Positions 8,001 to 17,531 of a stretch of DNA of 34,591 nucleotides are shown here, in pieces. A model generated the notes under the pieces. The model saw only the letters and a list, made by a program, of their open reading frames with translations. It was not told where the DNA came from and made no database searches. Source of the DNA: Desulfuromonas sp. (GTDB taxonomy: Bacteria; Desulfobacterota; Desulfuromonadia; Desulfuromonadales; Desulfuromonadaceae); the NCBI GenBank assembly GCA_021162745.1, contig JAGGYC010000062.1:1-34591 (forward strand), given 5' to 3'. Position 1 is the stretch's first letter; each line of letters begins with the position of its first letter. The translations under genes were made by a program, and so were the position numbers.

Positions 8001-8024
8001 TGGAATATTAAGGCATTGATCAAC

Positions 8025-9968
8025 ATGTTTAATAATATGCGCCTGCGTTGGAAAATGCTGGTCGTCGTCCTGCCCTTGGTGCTGATCCCGCTGATCATCG
8101 TCGGTGGCATCGTCAGTTACACCTCAGTGGATCTGGCACGCCAGGGGATCAACCAGGCCAGCATGGACGATCTGGAGCACATGGCCACCTTTACCCGCCA
8201 CCTGCTCGAATCGCACCACCGCCAGTTTCAGGTTTATCAGCAGGAACGCAAGGACAATTTTATCACCGAGCTGAAAACCCTGGCTAAAATTGCCGAAAAT
8301 ATGGTCACCGCCCAACAGCACTTGGTTAAAAAGGGGGAGATCTCCCTTAAAACCGCCCAGCGCCGGGCGCGCAAGCAGCTTAAGCAGGTCAACATTGGCG
8401 AAAGCGGCTACCTGTACGCCCTGACCAGCGATGGCACATTGCAGGTCCACGTCGCCCGTGAGCAGGAAAATATCCTCAACGAACAGGACGGCAACGGCCG
8501 CTTCTTTATCCAGCAGATGCTGCAGCAAGCCAAACAATCCACACCCGGCACCCTGCACCTGATCCGCTATCCATGGCGCAACGCACCACTGGGCGATACG
8601 ATCTTCCGCGAGAAACAGGCAGCCTATCTCTATTTTCCCGAATGGGATTGGATTATCGCTGCCGCTGGTTATATCTCTGAAAGCTATTCCGACATGCTGT
8701 TTGAACAGCGGGCGCTTAACGACCTGAAAACAAAAATCAAAGAGAAAAAGGTCGGCAAAACGGGCTACATCTTCTGCATGAACAGCAAAGGCACCTTCAC
8801 CATCCATCCGAAGGATGAAGGAAAAACCTTTTACGACATCCGCGATCGTGACGGCAATGCTTTCATCAAGGAGATGTGCGACAAAAAACAGGGTTGGATT
8901 CGCTACCCGTGGGGAAACGGTTCCAATACCGAGATGAAGATTGTCCGTTATGATTACTTTGCCCCCTGGGACTGGATCGTCGCCGTTGGCTGCTACGAAG
9001 ATGAGTTCTTCGAGACAGCTGACACCATCAGCGGGAACAGCGCCAGAATCACGCTGATTATCACCCTGATCGCCTGTCTTATTTCGGTGCTGATGGTAAC
9101 CTACGTCTCCAAGGTGCTTACCGATCCGATTCGTCACATGATCCGTGTCATCCGCCGGGTCAAGCAGGGCCATCTCAATGAGCAGATGCAGATTCATACC
9201 AGCGATGAACTCGGCGAACTGGCCCTGACCTTCAACCGCATGACGGAGATTATCACCCAGAACAAGGAGATGGAGGCCAGCCTGGCTCAGCACGGCAAGA
9301 TGGCCTCGCTGGGCATTCTATCCTCGGGGGTAGCCCACGAGATCAACAACCCGCTGGGGGTAATCCTCGGCTATTCCGGCTATCTGGAAAACAAGATCGG
9401 TGAAGAAGATCCCAACTACCGTTACATCCACGAGATCAAACGGGAGAGCAAGCGCTGCCGTAAGATCGTTCAAGACCTGCTCAGTTATGCCCGCACCCCG
9501 AAGTCGGTGATGGAAAAAACCGATATCAATGTACTGCTGGAGCAGATTATCGACTTTGCCGCCAACCACACCGACATGCACCACGTTACCATTGTCAAAA
9601 ATCTCAGACCGAACCTGCCGGAGCTGAACATCGACGGCGACCAGATGCGCCAGGTAGCCATCAACTTGATCCTTAATGCCGGAGGAGCGATTCAGGGTCG
9701 TGGTCGACTGGAGGTGGAAACCAAGCGCGAGGACGATAATATTCTGATGATCTTCCGCGACAGCGGTGACGGTATCGATCAGGAGATCCTCGACAAAATC
9801 TTCGAACCGTTTTTCACCACCAAGGAGAAGGGGACCGGACTCGGACTCGCTATCTCCAAACAGATTATTGAACAACATCACGGCAGCATTCACATGACCA
9901 GCACCCCCGGTGCCGGCACGACGGTAACCGTCCGACTGCCGCTGGATTTTAAGGAGTACGCGCTATGA
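8025..9968 (+). CDS. Double-Cache membrane sensor histidine kinase
   Basis: This is a 647-residue sensor. A first membrane helix (residues about 12-32) precedes an extracytoplasmic region with two single-Cache-type modules of similar sequence (GESGYLYALTSDGTLQVH and VGKTGYIFCMNSKGTFTIHP; each ends in a W-DWI-A-G motif). A second membrane helix (ITLIITLIACLISVLMVTYV), a HAMP linker, a HisKA domain with phospho-accepting His438 (GVAHEINNPLG) and a HATPase domain (DSGDGIDQEILDKIFEPFF, GTGLGLAISKQI) follow. The ATG at 8025 was preferred because AGG lies 11 bases upstream; a TTG at 8016 is too close. Cache domains usually bind small organic acids or amino acids. The gene overlaps the regulator by ATGA, so the two are a cognate pair. 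Confidence 0.93.
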   Translation: MFNNMRLRWKMLVVVLPLVLIPLIIVGGIVSYTSVDLARQGINQASMDDLEHMATFTRHLLESHHRQFQVYQQERKDNFITELKTLAKIAENMVTAQQHLVKKGEISLKTAQRRARKQLKQVNIGESGYLYALTSDGTLQVHVAREQENILNEQDGNGRFFIQQMLQQAKQSTPGTLHLIRYPWRNAPLGDTIFREKQAAYLYFPEWDWIIAAAGYISESYSDMLFEQRALNDLKTKIKEKKVGKTGYIFCMNSKGTFTIHPKDEGKTFYDIRDRDGNAFIKEMCDKKQGWIRYPWGNGSNTEMKIVRYDYFAPWDWIVAVGCYEDEFFETADTISGNSARITLIITLIACLISVLMVTYVSKVLTDPIRHMIRVIRRVKQGHLNEQMQIHTSDELGELALTFNRMTEIITQNKEMEASLAQHGKMASLGILSSGVAHEINNPLGVILGYSGYLENKIGEEDPNYRYIHEIKRESKRCRKIVQDLLSYARTPKSVMEKTDINVLLEQIIDFAANHTDMHHVTIVKNLRPNLPELNIDGDQMRQVAINLILNAGGAIQGRGRLEVETKREDDNILMIFRDSGDGIDQEILDKIFEPFFTTKEKGTGLGLAISKQIIEQHHGSIHMTSTPGAGTTVTVRLPLDFKEYAL

Positions 9969-11347
9969 GCGGAGAACGCATCCTGCTGATCGACAATGAA
10001 GAGGGGCTGTGCCGCATGATGGAAGCGGTTCTGTCCGACAGCGGCTACAAGATTAAATCCTACACCCGCTCCTTTGAAGCGGTGGAAGATTTCAACGCCG
10101 GCGATTACGATCTGGTGATCAGCGATATCAAGATGCCGGGGATGGACGGGCTTGAGGTATTACAGCGTATCCGCAGCAAGGACCACGCTGTACAGGTGAT
10201 CATGATCACCGCCTACGCCACCGTTGAAACCTCCATCCAGGCGCTACGCAAAGGGGCCTACGACATGTTGACCAAGCCCTTCGAGCCCGAAGAGCTGCTG
10301 TACCGGGTCAAAAATGCCCTCAACCACACTCAGCTGATGGAGGAAAACCGCGAACTGAAAAAAGAACTGGCAGGCCAGTTTTCCTTCGACAACATTATCG
10401 GTTCATCGTCAGGACTTAAAACGGTGCTGGAAACGGTCAAAAAGGTGGCGGTGCGCGACACCTCAGTGTTGATTACCGGTGAGTCAGGCACCGGCAAGGA
10501 GTTGATCGCCCAGGCCATTCACCACAATTCTCCGCGTAAAGATCAACGTTTTATGGCCATCAACTGCGGCGCCCTGCCCGAATCGGTGCTGGAAAGTGAG
10601 CTGTTCGGCTACAAAAAAGGGGCTTTTACCGGTGCCGCTGGCAACCGCAAGGGACTTCTCGAAACCGCCGACGGTGGCACACTGTTCCTCGATGAGATCG
10701 GCAACCTGCCGCTGACGGTGCAGAAAACCCTACTGCGTTTCTTACAAGAACAGGAATTCATGCGCATCGGCGATACCCAGCCGATCAAAGTAGACGTGCG
10801 GGTGGTCTCAGCCACCAATGCCGACCTGCAACTGGAGATGGATGAGGGCCGCTATCGTGAAGATCTCTACTACCGCCTCAATGTCGTCAACATCCACCTG
10901 CCGGCCCTGCGTGAACGCCGTTCAGACCTGCCGCTGCTGGCCACCCACTTCATCCATCATCAGAATAAAAAATTCGGCACCAGCGTCCAAGGACTAACCC
11001 CCGAAGCGATGAAACTGCTGAGCGCCTATGACTGGCCCGGCAACATCCGTCAGATGGAAAATGTCATTGAGGCCTGTATGACGCTGGAAAGTGCCGACCT
11101 CATTAGCCTGTCGGTATTGTCCCAGTTTATCACCGCCGATGCCGACAGCAATACCACCCCAGCCAACATCGCATCGGAGGATTACACCCAGGCCTTGGGA
11201 GAATTTGAAACCCGCTATCTGCTCAATCTCCTCAATTCCACTGGCGGCAACGTCGAAGAAGCCGCTCGCCAGGCGGGGATGAATATGGCCACCATCTATC
11301 GCAAACTGAAGAAATACAACATCCGCAAGGAAGATTACAATTCTTAA
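9965..11347 (+). CDS. NtrC-family sigma-54-dependent response regulator
   Basis: The 460-residue enhancer-binding protein has a receiver domain with phospho-acceptor Asp54 (LVISDIKMPGMDG) and switch residues in ITAYAT and TKPFEP. An AAA+ sigma-54 activation domain carries Walker A GESGTGKE at 172-179, the sigma-54 contact loop GAFTGA at 219-224 and GGTLFLDEIGNLPL. A C-terminal Fis-type helix-turn-helix follows (NVEEAARQAGMNMATIYRKL). It overlaps the Cache kinase by four bases, which marks it as that kinase's partner. The likely targets include the sigma-54 promoter and palindromes in the downstream intergenic region; that link is inferred from position and motif type. Confidence 0.95.
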   Translation: MSGERILLIDNEEGLCRMMEAVLSDSGYKIKSYTRSFEAVEDFNAGDYDLVISDIKMPGMDGLEVLQRIRSKDHAVQVIMITAYATVETSIQALRKGAYDMLTKPFEPEELLYRVKNALNHTQLMEENRELKKELAGQFSFDNIIGSSSGLKTVLETVKKVAVRDTSVLITGESGTGKELIAQAIHHNSPRKDQRFMAINCGALPESVLESELFGYKKGAFTGAAGNRKGLLETADGGTLFLDEIGNLPLTVQKTLLRFLQEQEFMRIGDTQPIKVDVRVVSATNADLQLEMDEGRYREDLYYRLNVVNIHLPALRERRSDLPLLATHFIHHQNKKFGTSVQGLTPEAMKLLSAYDWPGNIRQMENVIEACMTLESADLISLSVLSQFITADADSNTTPANIASEDYTQALGEFETRYLLNLLNSTGGNVEEAARQAGMNMATIYRKLKKYNIRKEDYNS

Positions 11348-11362
11348 AAATATCGCCGCCAT

Positions 11363-11402
11363 CTTGCATTTTTGCGAATTTGTGATTTTGCATTTTTGCG
11401 AA
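11363..11402. promoter_or_regulatory. Two tandem copies of a putative enhancer palindrome
   Basis: CTTGCA-TTTT-TGCGAA (11363-11378) and TTTGCA-TTTT-TGCGAA (11387-11402) are two copies of TTTGCA-N4-TGCRAA with centres 24 bp apart, starting 16 bp after the regulator stop codon. A third, perfect copy lies at 11692-11707. The form fits a dimeric Fis-type helix-turn-helix protein, so the adjacent NtrC-type regulator is the obvious candidate. Confidence 0.55.
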
Positions 11403-11691
11403 ACATTATCAATACTTCAAAGCCCCTGATAGCAACGCTATCGTCTCAAGAATACATAGATTGGTCACAAGAAATTTACATTCAAAAGAAACATCCCCCG
11501 TGACCAACAACTGAACATGACCTGCGGCAAAGAGTCGTCTCCACCCATGAATGCCTCATGTAATTCAGCATGTTACACTCGAACCACACCATAAACGAAA
11601 ACGTAAGACATATAAGTTTAACAAGTTACATGTGGTGTGGAGTTTTTCAACGGCATATTTTGTTCGAAACAGGACCAATCTGTATCATTTT

Positions 11692-11707
11692 TTTGCATCA
11701 TTGCAAA
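11692..11707. promoter_or_regulatory. Perfect palindrome TTTGCA-TCAT-TGCAAA, putative enhancer site
   Basis: This is the best copy of the motif seen twice at 11363-11402. Its centre lies about 131 bp upstream of the predicted start of the sigma-54 transcript at 11831, the usual distance for an NtrC-type upstream activating sequence. Confidence 0.6.
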
Positions 11708-11803
11708 TTCCCGGCAAAACACCTAAAGCACCACACACCTGCACCACACAATAAATCCTTACACTTCCAGCACCTTAGAGATTTGTTCGTTTCACGACAG
11801 TAT

Positions 11804-11820
11804 TTGGCACAACCTCTGCA
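11804..11820 (+). promoter_or_regulatory. Sigma-54 (-24/-12) promoter
   Basis: TTGGCAC-AACCTC-TGCA matches the RpoN consensus: a perfect TTGGCAC -24 element and TGCA at -12, with the diagnostic GG-N10-GC spacing. A start near 11831 is predicted. There is no protein-coding frame of any quality downstream before the terminator at 11998-12030, so the product should be an RNA. Only 0-1 such matches are expected by chance in a window this size. Confidence 0.7.
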
Positions 11821-11830
11821 TTGTATTCGA

Positions 11831-12030
11831 TACAAATATCGCGGTTATTCGTAATCAAACCTCACTGACCCAGCTGCAACCCACACCAAGCGCAGCCGTC
11901 AGTGTTACGAATCAGCTGTTACACCACAACAGCAGAAAACCCGTTAGGCGTTATCCTAATACCCATACCCATACCAAACCACATAACGCCAAAGAACAAA
12001 AAGCCACCCCTGAACGGGTGGCTTTTTGTT
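11831..12030 (+). ncRNA. Candidate sigma-54-dependent structured small RNA
   Basis: About 200 nt between a -24/-12 promoter and an intrinsic terminator form consecutive hairpins by eye. The first has an 8-bp outer stem (11847-11854 with 11905-11912), a 7-bp stem (CACTGAC 11863-11869 with GTCAGTG 11898-11904) and a 5-bp inner stem (GCTGC 11873-11877 with GCAGC 11892-11896) closing a 14-nt loop. The second pairs GCTGTT (11915-11920) with AACAGC (11928-11933). The third pairs GGCGTTAT (11947-11954) with ATAACGCC (11983-11990) around a 28-nt loop. The fourth is the terminator. All three loops lack G almost completely and are rich in ACC/CCC/CAC. I see no ORF with a ribosome binding site. The layout resembles CrcZ/CrcY RNAs next to CbrAB, but no sequence similarity is claimed. 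No transcription evidence is available. Confidence 0.6.
11998..12030 (+). terminator. Strong intrinsic terminator ending the candidate small RNA
   Basis: GCCACCC (12003-12009) pairs with GGGTGGC (12016-12022) around a 6-nt loop, extended by AAAAA/TTTTT. The run TTTTTGTTTGTT follows. No coding gene ends just upstream, which implies that an untranslated transcript is being terminated. Confidence 0.85.
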
Positions 12031-12240
12031 TGTTAGATCGTCAGCTATAAACACTGCTTTAAGTCAAAGCGCTTTTTCCCATGACAATCTGCACCCTGTG
12101 TGCTTAAATTATGCCGTTTTACGTTTTAATAAACCTGAAGCCGTGGACCAGCCATGCACTAAACAACGCAAGTGGCTTAATCGCCATAGGCACACGGAAT
12201 CAGGATAAAGTACTGCACCCAGAAAAGGAGTACCTCATCC

Positions 12241-12804
12241 ATGTATAGCTGTTCCGACCTGAAAAAAGGTCTTAAATTAATGATCGATGACGAGCCTCAT
12301 GTCATCGTCGGTTTTGACTTTACCAAACCCGGCAAGGGCCAGGCACTTTATAAATGCAAACTGCGCAACATGATCACCGGATCACTGTTCGACCGCACCT
12401 ACCGCAGCGGCGAGAGCTTTAAGCCCGCCCCTCTGGAAGAACGTGACATGCAGTACCTCTACCAAGACGACACCGGCTATGTGTTCATGGATACCAAGAC
12501 CTATGACCAGATCTCGTTGAGCGAAGAAACTCTGGCCGACGACAAGTACTTCTTGGTCGACAACATGGAAGTGAAGATTCTGATGTTCGGCGAACTGGGC
12601 ATCGGTATCACCCTGCCTATCTTTGTCAACCTGCGCGTCACTCAATCTGACCCCTGGGTTAAAGGCGACACCGCAGCGGGCAACAACAAGCCCGCCACCG
12701 TTGAAACCGGCTACACCCTGCAAGTGCCCTCCTTTGTCGACGAGGGGGTACTGATCCAGATCGACACCCGCACCGGCGATTATGTGACACGCGTCAAGGA
12801 ATAA
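12241..12804 (+). CDS. efp: Elongation factor P
   Basis: EF-P enters the ribosomal E site and rescues ribosomes stalled at polyproline stretches. The 187-residue protein is the usual length, with the N-terminal KOW-like domain and two OB-type domains, including the family signature PWVKGDTAAGNNKPATVETG. The loop that carries the modification reads KPGKGQA, with Lys32 in the place of the beta-lysylated Lys34 of E. coli EF-P. AAAAGGAG precedes the ATG at a good distance. The ligase gene epmA follows 4 bp later, so the factor and its modifying enzyme are coupled. The KamA-type aminomutase gene lies 5 kb further on. Confidence 0.97.
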   Translation: MYSCSDLKKGLKLMIDDEPHVIVGFDFTKPGKGQALYKCKLRNMITGSLFDRTYRSGESFKPAPLEERDMQYLYQDDTGYVFMDTKTYDQISLSEETLADDKYFLVDNMEVKILMFGELGIGITLPIFVNLRVTQSDPWVKGDTAAGNNKPATVETGYTLQVPSFVDEGVLIQIDTRTGDYVTRVKE

Positions 12805-12808
12805 ATCT

Positions 12809-13723
12809 ATGGCCGACCCGAACCAGGGGCTTGCGGCAAAGCAGCAACGACTAACGAGCAGGGCCCGGATTTTGACTGAAATCCGGGCCTTTTTCGGCGC
12901 CGCTGGCTTTCTGGAGGTGGAAACACCCTACCGTATCCCCTGTAACGCCCCTGAACTGTATATCGATCCCCTGCCGAGCGACAGTAGCGTCCTCCACACC
13001 TCGCCTGAGCTGTGTATGAAGCGACTGCTGGCGGCGGGATATCCGCAGATTTACCAACTCTGCCACTGCTGGCGGGCCGAAGAGCACGGCAGCAGACATC
13101 TGCCAGAATTCACCATGTTGGAATGGTACCGTGCCAACAGCGACTACCGTCAACTGATGGACGACTGCGAACAACTGCTGGCCAAGCTACTACCCAGTGG
13201 GAAACTGATCTATCAGGGGCAACAGGTTGACGTGCGCCCCCCCTTCGAACGCCTGACCCTGGTCGAAGCATTCAACCGCTACGCACCCGTCAGCCTTGAT
13301 CAGGCCATGGTTGAAGAGAAGTTCGAAGAACACTACAGTGACTATGTCGAGCCACAGCTTGGCCGCTGCAAACCAACCATCCTCTACGACTTTCCAGCCG
13401 GTATGGCTGCATTGGCCCGAACCAGGCCCGACAAGCCACAACTGGCGGAACGCTTTGAACTCTACATCGCCGGACTGGAACTGGCCAATGCCTTCAGCGA
13501 GTTGACCGACGCCAGCGAGCAACGACAACGGTTTGAGGCTGCAGAGCGACAACGGCAAGAACTGGGAAAACCCGCTTATCCATTGCCGGAACGTTTTTTA
13601 CAGGAACTGGAGCAGATGCCGGAGGCGGCAGGGATTGCCTTGGGGATCGATCGACTGGTGATGTTATTGACCGATGCCGACAGCATTGGTCAGGTGGTGG
13701 CGTTTACGCCGGAGGAGTTGTAG
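12809..13723 (+). CDS. epmA: EF-P (R)-beta-lysine ligase
   Basis: EpmA (also PoxA, GenX or YjeA) is a class II lysyl-tRNA synthetase paralogue that adenylates (R)-beta-lysine and attaches it to the conserved lysine of EF-P. The 304-residue length matches the family and lacks the anticodon-binding domain of LysRS. Visible catalytic elements are LEVETPYRIP with HTSPELCMKRLLAAGYPQIY, the motif 2 region HCWRAEEHGSRHLPEFTMLE, ELANAFSELTDASEQRQRF, and motif 3 GIALGIDRLVMLL. It begins 4 bp after the efp stop. This pairing strongly predicts a lysylation-type EF-P modification. Confidence 0.96.
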   Translation: MADPNQGLAAKQQRLTSRARILTEIRAFFGAAGFLEVETPYRIPCNAPELYIDPLPSDSSVLHTSPELCMKRLLAAGYPQIYQLCHCWRAEEHGSRHLPEFTMLEWYRANSDYRQLMDDCEQLLAKLLPSGKLIYQGQQVDVRPPFERLTLVEAFNRYAPVSLDQAMVEEKFEEHYSDYVEPQLGRCKPTILYDFPAGMAALARTRPDKPQLAERFELYIAGLELANAFSELTDASEQRQRFEAAERQRQELGKPAYPLPERFLQELEQMPEAAGIALGIDRLVMLLTDADSIGQVVAFTPEEL

Positions 13724-16571: not shown

Positions 16572-17531
16572 ATGCCTCGTCAACCAAGACTCGACAGCCC
16601 GGGATTACTGCATCATGTTATTTTTCGCGGCATTGAGCGCTGTAATATCGTTAAAGATGACAGTGATCGGCTCAATTTTGTCTCCCGTTTGGATCGCTTA
16701 TCGGGGGAGTGCAATATTGCGGTTTACGCTTGGGCTTTGCTCGACAACCATGTTCATCTTCTGGTTCGTAGCAGCGATTATGGTTTACCGCGTTTTATGC
16801 GTCGCTTGCTGACGGGGCACGCCATCACGTTTAATCTGCGTTACAAGCGGCATGGGCATTTGTTTCAGAATCGATATAAGTCGATCGTGTGTGATGAGGA
16901 GTGTTATTTTTTAGAATTGGTGCGTTACATTCATCTCAACCCGATCAGGGCCGGAATCGTTAAAACCATTGAGGAGTTAAAGTCTTACCCCTGGTGCGGT
17001 CACGCAGCATTGGTGAATAAAAAACAGAAAAGCTGGCAGAATCGTGATGAGGTGTTGCTTTACTTCGGTAACAAAAAGAAGCAAGCCATAGAAGGTTATG
17101 AACTGTTTATCGCCGATGGATTAAACCAAGGAGAACGGTCTGAGTTGGTCGGTGGCGGCTTGCACCGCTCACAACAAAACGTGCCCGGAATTAACGATCA
17201 GCCAGAAGCATATGATGATCGGATATTGGGTGGTGGTGATTTTGTTGAACAAATTCTACAGCGGAATGAAGTAAGCTCTGGTCTTGTTAATCCACACGAA
17301 CGACAACAGCTCGGAGAAGAGTTCGTAAAGCGCACCTGTATGGAAAAATCTATAGCACTACAGGAAATACAATCGGGAAGTCGCCGCCACGCAGTTTCAA
17401 AGGCAAGAAATCTTATGGCGACAGAACTTATGCGTGAGTATGGATGGTCATCGACTGCGGTGGCGCGATACTTGGGTGTTTCAACATCAGCAATTTGTAA
17501 GATTTTGGCTCGTGCAAAGTTACTAAAATAA
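16572..17531 (+). mobile_element. REP-associated tyrosine transposase (RAYT, TnpA_REP type)
   Basis: RAYTs are single-copy Y1 HUH transposase relatives that are thought to mobilise REP palindromes. The 319-residue protein begins MPRQPRLDSPGLLHHVIFRG, as family members do. It has the metal-binding HUH-type pair His60-Val-His62 (DNHVHLLV) and the nucleophile Tyr119 in LVRYIHLNPIRAG. The C-terminal 60 residues form a DnaA/Tn-type helix-turn-helix (MREYGWSSTAVARYLGVSTSAICKIL). AAGGAAG lies upstream of the ATG. The frame is intact and both flanks keep REP-like repeats, so it could be active on them in trans. It separates the efp-epmA pair and PAS kinase from the aminomutase operon. Confidence 0.9.

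Follow-up and report, generated by a model that had tools for sequence, protein, structure and literature searches.

The question raised by this locus is what, if anything, occupies the 0.9 kb between the stop codon of an NtrC-type response regulator gene (11347) and efp (12241) in the genome of a Desulfuromonas sp. (family Desulfuromonadaceae; assembly GCA_021162745.1, contig JAGGYC010000062.1). The whole stretch of DNA that was analyzed, 34,591 nucleotides in length, is referred to below as the window, and its list of open reading frames holds no convincing gene in that interval. A first-pass annotation, made from the letters of the sequence, had proposed a sigma-54-dependent small RNA at this position. 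Comparison with related genomes confirms that positions 11831-12030 encode a conserved, structured and unannotated RNA that has a sigma-54-type promoter to itself, together with enhancer sites and a terminator. From the same comparisons we consider it quite probable that this is a trans-acting, base-pairing small RNA (sRNA), co-produced with the transporter SatP and a monocarboxylate transporter (MCT)-type protein, that silences a Na+/solute symporter.

A conserved, structured RNA downstream of the regulator gene

The predicted RNA folds at -66.6 kcal/mol, as opposed to -34.3 +/- 3.9 kcal/mol for 200 shuffled sequences (z -8.3). Its helices were examined in an alignment of eight of the ten same-genus sequences, which omits G029 (no clear promoter, and an unalignable 5' half) and G032 (in which the RNA has a 3' untranslated region (UTR) form, described below). 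Among these eight units, 14 of the 41 base pairs displayed two-sided changes (27 cells), while slid controls gave 0-4 pairs; a count as high was reached in none of 500 shuffles, a figure that does not amount to a probability because the structure was built from these same, mutually related sequences. The loop of the hairpin designated P4 (Table 1) is itself well conserved, with 15 of its 28 columns invariant over the 14 sequences of the family. The earlier description of ‘about 200 nt of consecutive perfect hairpins’ was right in that the RNA is strongly structured, but slightly overstated the case, since the 5' half is branched and contains internal loops. The strong intrinsic terminator described there is indeed a perfect 15-bp inverted repeat, and this hairpin is not among the terminators listed by a simple terminator scan of the window.

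The annotation had also recognized palindromic enhancer-like sites and a -24/-12 promoter. Three copies of a palindrome of the TTTTGCA-N4-TGCAAAA type are present, beginning at 11362, 11386 and 11691. Matches to the -24/-12 pattern with at most two mismatches number 18 in the window versus 21.9 expected, and the element at 11804 is the sole one with a single mismatch; because such a match, taken alone, is no more than chance would produce in 34 kb of sequence, the case for the promoter rests on comparison with relatives, which bears it out. All eight same-genus RNAs compared possess the element (in the form TTGGCA-N7-TGC in seven of them), together with an enhancer-like site that starts 113-127 bases before it (114-127 bases in the seven relatives compared). 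G030 has a weaker form of the element (CGGCAT) and a weak enhancer-like site, with three mismatches.

A BLASTN search with positions 11790-12040 as the query matched the RNA locus in all 14 genomes of the family, the window genome included (the weakest match, in G032, has an E value of 1.4e-4). A model of P4 and the terminator (R1), built from these 14 loci, scores 56-100 bits at them; its recovery of 14 of 14 is by construction, because it was built from those loci, and the BLASTN search provides the independent count. In the other 263 of the 277 genomes of the class, R1 revealed nothing convincing under strict filters that lose weak matches: 17 weak matches were obtained (the best at 31.9 bits), and the 16 inspected are terminators or unrelated DNA. 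A pattern scan of contigs returned 14 stretches, five of them on contigs that match those of the family in length and nine in other taxa, the latter showing neither an ACC-rich loop nor a terminator at the match.

The form of the RNA differs among these genomes. Eight genomes of the window's genus, the window genome among them, carry a free-standing unit comprising the enhancer-like palindrome, the -24/-12 element, helices P1-P3, P4 and the terminator. G029 possesses P3, P4 and the terminator, with a promoter that is not clear (a minimal GG-N10-GC only). In five genomes (G032 and G036-G039) the RNA consists of P4 and the terminator only. The hairpin there is situated at the satP stop codon or spans it, and the 400 bases preceding the hairpin contain no -24/-12 match. 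The first-pass annotation had named an absence of conserved promoter or stem pairs in relatives that keep the regulator as the result that would speak against it; inside the family, we find the opposite.

Could the conservation instead reflect a small protein, on either strand? An antisense frame (MWFGMGMG...) that starts at a conserved ATG runs for 47-77 codons in five of the 14 genomes. Across all 14, however, its length ranges from 6 to 77 codons, three genomes use another start, no Shine-Dalgarno sequence was seen before it, and the helices covary. We consider such a protein very improbable, and rejected it as a candidate on either strand because the frames are unconserved across the 14 genomes. 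A 94-codon frame at 11570-11854 crosses the predicted promoter.

Table 1. Positions of the RNA, its parts and the surrounding features in the window.
Feature	Position	Strand	Remarks
Small RNA, ~200 nt	11831-12033	+	start inferred from promoter, end from terminator
5' domain: closing helix P1 (~11840-11844 with 11941-11946) enclosing two hairpins	11840-11946	+	covaries in relatives
Hairpin P2, apical loop ACCCACACCAA	11863-11904	+	
Hairpin P3, loop ACACCAC	11915-11933	+	helix paired in 8 of 8; two-sided changes in 3 of 6 pairs
Hairpin P4, stem GGCGTTAT / ATAACGCC, 28-nt loop	11947-11990	+	part common to all 14 family genomes
Seed 1, CCATACCCATACC	11963-11975	+	complementary to symporter Shine-Dalgarno/start, site B, G000:C102:9700-9712 (G000, the window genome)
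Seed 2, CAAACCACATAA (loop end and part of P4 3' arm)	11975-11986	+	complementary to upstream leader site A, G000:C102:9653-9664
Intrinsic terminator, perfect 15-bp stem	11995-12030	+	inverted repeat 11995-12009/12016-12030
Sigma-54-type -24/-12 promoter, TTGGCAC-AACCTC-TGCA	11804-11820	+	predicted +1 at 11831
Enhancer-like palindrome	11691-11708		1 mismatch; starts 113 bases before the -24/-12 element
Enhancer-like palindrome	11386-11403		1 mismatch to TTTTGCA-N4-TGCAAAA
Enhancer-like palindrome, weak (3 mismatches)	11362-11379		position of the satP enhancer in most relatives
Sensor histidine kinase (dCache_2 - HAMP - HisKA - HATPase_c)	8016-9968	+	
NtrC-type response regulator (receiver, sigma-54 AAA+, Fis-type HTH_8)	9965-11347	+	best homologue per relative 71-90% identical in 13 relatives, some homologues being cut by contig ends
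efp (elongation factor P)	12241-12804	+	outside the unit; likewise the next gene in 12 of 13 relatives; further off in G030

Complementarity between the P4 loop and a symporter leader

A search of the family genomes for complements of the P4 loop (as a 14-mer) yielded 34 matches, of which 13 are the RNA loci themselves and 21 lie elsewhere. Four of those 21 represent a single site that recurs in four genomes (AAGGAGGUAUGGGUAUGG), corresponding to the Shine-Dalgarno sequence and start of a single gene; among the 18 of the 21 that were inspected, these four are the symporter start and the rest are, by eye, coding or unrelated DNA. The gene encodes the small subunit of a sodium/substrate symporter (DUF4212; 38.1 bits, cut-off 26.05) and is followed by the gene for the large subunit, a VC_2705-family sodium/solute symporter (488.6 bits, cut-off 320.75). 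The small-subunit gene was found in 13 of the 14 family genomes.

In each of the 13 genomes that possess the gene, the start region (‘site B’) is complementary to that genome's own P4 loop over an uninterrupted helix of 11-13 base pairs, with one G-U pair in G028 and G029. A second region, ‘site A’ (UUAUGUGGUUUG), located approximately 35 nt further upstream, is complementary to a 12-nt segment of P4 (CAAACCACAUAA) in all ten same-genus genomes; a 12-nt match is present in 11 of the 13 genomes, with G039 using another 12-nt register (GCGUUAUGUGGU). The two sites are ordered such that one loop could pair with both of them, and a hairpin is predicted in the leader in between.

The complementarity at site B covaries in two genomes. 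The G030 target is GGUAUAGGUAUGG and its RNA counterpart CCAUACCUAUACC; this target forms 13 base pairs with the RNA of G030 itself as well as with the G028 and G029 RNAs, and 7-8 with the other ten. The change in the G030 RNA is shared by G028 and G029, which keep the older target and pair with it through G-U, the expected intermediate of the compensation in G030. In G032 the target (AGGGUAUGGAG) forms 11 base pairs with its own RNA (CUCCAUACCCU) and 8 with the other twelve. When duplex energies are summed, true pairs beat permuted pairs (P 0.002; 0.013 for site B alone and 0.025 for site A alone) in a test that ignores the relatedness of the genomes, a point to be set with the objections below. 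Compared with 158 other frame starts (frames of at least 100 codons in the window and in eleven other loci of its own genome), the window RNA's target ranks first, at -33.8 versus a mean of -10.8 (standard deviation 4.1, lowest value -24.7).

Several further observations weigh against a specific interaction with this leader. The 14-mer search is unenriched overall, with 21 matches outside the RNA loci versus 29 in the control; G036 carries the RNA, and the target gene was not detected there; and of 2000 dinucleotide-shuffled leaders, 4 attain the observed energy. Site A is weak in G037 (7) and G038 (6), where the best values among the 13 RNAs are 9 and 8, respectively, and at site A in G037, G038 and G039 the RNAs of other genomes pair equally well or better. 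Site B overlaps a Shine-Dalgarno sequence and start codon, which are conserved anyway. In addition, three genomes outside the family that have no convincing R1 match retain the site, G080 and G076 exactly (and site A as well) and G126 with one change. The symporter genes of G080 and G076 (L219 and L220; another family) fall among those of the present family in a small protein tree of 15 rows, so that horizontal transfer of the target is likely, with modest tree support; that tree omits G126 and three of the 13 family genes (those of G029, G030 and G032), and the comparison of start regions omits G026, G107 and G108. An RNA that escaped detection in G080 and G076, or some other reason for the conservation of their leaders, is possible.

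That conservation in genomes with no convincing RNA match also speaks for a different explanation, in which P4 is a mere stability or termination element of the satP mRNA (and does form the 3' end of satP in five genomes), the symporter complementarity being a coincidence or a by-product of Shine-Dalgarno conservation. We consider this unlikely. The invariant loop columns are not needed for stability, the second 12-nt match upstream was noticed only after the first, RNA and target have undergone matched changes in G030 and G032, and one genus has gained a promoter and further hairpins of its own.

It is also conceivable that pairing activates the symporter because it opens up weak structure in the leader near the start site; a hairpin is predicted in the leader and, in some genomes, weak pairing beside the start. 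Site B, however, covers the Shine-Dalgarno sequence, the spacer and the start codon, and pairing over these elements normally blocks ribosomes. We regard activation as decidedly improbable, and silencing of the symporter through base pairing as the preferred reading.

satP, the regulator and its other sites

The first-pass annotation had stated that no gene lies downstream of the kinase-regulator pair. That is correct for the window genome, but not for its relatives, where satP (GPR1/FUN34/YaaH family) occupies that place and immediately precedes the RNA in all 13. The regulator gene is found on the same contig as the RNA locus in 11 of these 13 relatives, and on another contig in G038 and G032. 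The only PF01184 match in the window genome is located on contig C151, where it is preceded by an enhancer palindrome and a -24/-12 match; satP appears to have moved away from the RNA locus in this genome. Behind satP on C151 lies a frame that is transposase-like by eye, and a similar frame in the window (16572-17531) bears, again by eye, a likeness to repetitive extragenic palindrome (REP)-associated, Y1-type transposases.

Two more inverted repeats are located between the regulator gene and the RNA promoter, at 11461-11507 (TTGGTCAC/GTGACCAA) and at 11583-11648 (ACCACACCAT/ATGTGGTGTGG, then TTTTT). They may represent the terminator of the kinase-regulator operon, or what is left of a lost satP stretch. 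Just after satP, the enhancer palindrome lies within a longer inverted repeat (L059, approximately 2665-2705 on the + strand, with equivalents in L058 and L060-L064; for example GCCCGTTTTGCAAATTTGCAAAACGGGC), so that one DNA segment appears to form both the terminator-like satP hairpin and the enhancer site. On the far side of the unit, efp is followed by epmA/genX at 12809.

The window's own genome contains five copies of the palindrome TTTTGCA-N4-TGCAAAA with no more than one mismatch, versus none for a reversed control. Two of the five are at the RNA locus, two flank satP, and one (C23:3856) precedes a -24/-12 match and a gene for a transporter of the major facilitator superfamily (MFS). 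Summed over the 14 genomes the palindrome occurs 50 times versus 13 for the control; its counts are barely or not above the control in G029 (1 and 1), G030 (2 and 3) and G037 (4 and 3), which counts against the reading proposed here. The MFS gene corresponds to the NCBIfam L-lactate transporter family SfMCT (388.8 bits, cut-off 320), satP corresponds to AceTr_1, an acetate uptake transporter (287.8 bits, cut-off 50), and the sensor domain of the kinase is a dCache_2 domain; the signal sensed by the kinase may be a carboxylate such as acetate. The shared enhancer palindrome, its conserved spacing and the covarying helices make it very probable that the RNA is controlled by the adjacent NtrC-type system, as the annotation had supposed. 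A short cysteine-rich segment (C-P-F/Y-F-x-K/R-x-E-D-x-C-D-V-G-C) precedes, or is in frame with, satP and the MFS monocarboxylate transporter gene (loci L073 on G000:C151, L163:4040-4200 and L058-L070).

Close homologues of the regulator are present in 94 of the 134 genomes of the order at E <= 1e-140, and 81 of these 94 genomes lie outside the family; the RNA was not found in these 81. At 15 of the 20 regulator loci examined outside the family, loose patterns revealed, behind the regulator gene, both a palindrome of the enhancer-like kind and a -24/-12-like match, and at several of these loci the two elements precede a satP-like frame. It would thus seem that the RNA was added later to a transporter-regulating system that is older. 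G126 (L225) contains tandem satP-like genes after the regulator, each preceded by enhancer palindromes and a -24/-12 match, and no ACC-loop hairpin was seen behind the second of them.

A proposed circuit and its known counterparts

In the model that we propose, the regulator, once its dCache kinase is activated, would bind the TTTTGCA-N4-TGCAAAA enhancers and drive sigma-54-dependent transcription of satP, of the SfMCT-like MFS transporter gene and of the RNA. The exposed P4 loop would then pair with the symporter mRNA leader at two sites, with one duplex spanning the Shine-Dalgarno sequence to the start codon (site B), another about 35 nt upstream (site A), and the leader hairpin between them left unpaired. 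Such pairing, perhaps with help from Hfq (for which all 14 family genomes have the gene), would block translation of the VC_2705-family symporter operon (small subunit, then large subunit). One signal would thereby turn on one set of carboxylate importers while shutting off a different, Na+-driven importer. The RNA would have arisen as the 3' UTR of satP and have gained its own sigma-54 promoter in one genus; in the window genome, where satP is now located elsewhere, the RNA would have stayed.

Somewhat more cautiously, we think it likely that this is a new sRNA family, so far found in one bacterial family only, that derives from a satP 3' UTR, grips a leader at two sites and swaps importers under a single carboxylate sensor, all stages of its history (as a 3' UTR, with a promoter of its own, and apart from its parent gene) surviving in relatives. 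If true, it would provide Desulfuromonas-like bacteria, to whose lifestyle carboxylate uptake is central, with an sRNA for which the regulator, regulon and specific target are proposed, and would offer a stepwise view of how a 3' UTR may become a free-standing regulatory RNA.

The first-pass annotation had drawn a parallel to cbrAB-crcZ of Pseudomonas, in which the RNA titrates a translational regulator. The likeness in layout holds, with a sigma-54-type RNA beside an NtrC-type regulator, but the titration lacks support. In a decoy of the CrcZ or CsrB type, repeated ACC loops would titrate an RNA-binding protein and so relieve the repression of many mRNAs. The layout would suit such a decoy, as would the presence of hfq in all 14 family genomes; in addition, YACCA occurs at three apical-loop positions in all eight same-genus RNAs (25 of 26 pentamers being unpaired in single-sequence folds), and A-R-N runs of four are found twice in the window RNA and once in that of G030. 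The YACCA count, however, is not above that of dinucleotide shuffles (P 0.04-0.20), and we therefore do not rely on the repeated loop motif. Runs of four or more A-R-N are absent in six of the eight RNAs, each RNA contains 0-2 GGA, and none of the eight contains AAYAAYAA, which we take to be the CrcZ-type CA motif (a looser CA-like motif, AANAANAA, occurs in two). Rfam gave no gathering-level CrcZ match in the window, and in 11340-12240 CrcZ is missing from the 15 matches with E values of up to 5; the best of the sub-threshold matches by bits, STnc230 (27.8 bits, cut-off 50), was taken as chance. The P4 loop instead matches one mRNA start, with which it covaries in two genomes, and the single P4 hairpin of five of the 14 genomes would make a poor decoy. 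Membership in the CrcZ/CrcY group was rejected on the motif counts and Rfam results above, and we judge a decoy of either type unlikely.

For a base-pairing sRNA, other precedents come into view. In a literature search on Desulfuromonas small RNAs, none of the matches listed dealt with a base-pairing sRNA from these bacteria. In Geobacter, the expression of acetate-oxidation genes is reported to be linked to RpoN, in a paper that does not use the term ‘small RNA’ (PMC2725144). A structured motif between dnaK and satP has been described in Enterobacteriaceae, a different place and a different group (PMC11109978).

CrcZ and CrcY have an RpoN promoter that is activated by CbrAB, and CrcZ sequesters Hfq through six A-R-N repeats (PMC4063720). 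The Desulfuromonas RNA shares with them the RpoN-type promoter, the two-component system and the carbon-source theme, and differs from them in the absence of such runs from most of its members and in its predicted base-pairing target. GlmY is a sigma-54 sRNA encoded beside the QseE/QseF genes and activated via upstream sites with the motif TGT-N12-ACA (PMC6075780), and functions as a decoy in the RapZ/GlmZ system (PMC7073468). It resembles the present RNA in adjoining its two-component genes, and differs in its decoy role and its enhancer motif. As in the sigma-54 sRNAs NrsZ, CrcZ and GlmY, the gene in the window lies beside that of a regulator and has both promoter and enhancers; its relatives have satP in between.

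Two other cases appear closer by analogy than crcZ, namely NrsZ for position (ntrC-nrsZ) and GlnZ for origin. In NrsZ of Pseudomonas aeruginosa one stem-loop is the functional unit, which acts post-transcriptionally on mRNA and activates rhlA (PMC9308961). The predicted action of a single stem-loop on an mRNA is common to both (the NrsZ sequence itself was compared via Rfam only), whereas the Desulfuromonas RNA is predicted to repress its target, a Na+/solute symporter. GlnZ originates from the 3' UTR of glnA, an mRNA under an NtrC-type/sigma-54 switch, is released by RNase E and silences sucA (PMC9731577). A 3' UTR position is found in five of our 14 genomes and not in the window genome, and a single-stranded seed complementary to the target start, with covariation, is present in all 13 genomes that have the target. 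GlnZ and, by prediction, the 3' UTR form of our RNA are regulatory RNAs from the 3' end of an NtrC-type/sigma-54 mRNA that silence a metabolic mRNA; the two differ in that GlnZ depends on RNase E for its release, whereas the RNA described here has its own sigma-54-type promoter in one genus and, in the window genome, a parent gene that lies elsewhere.
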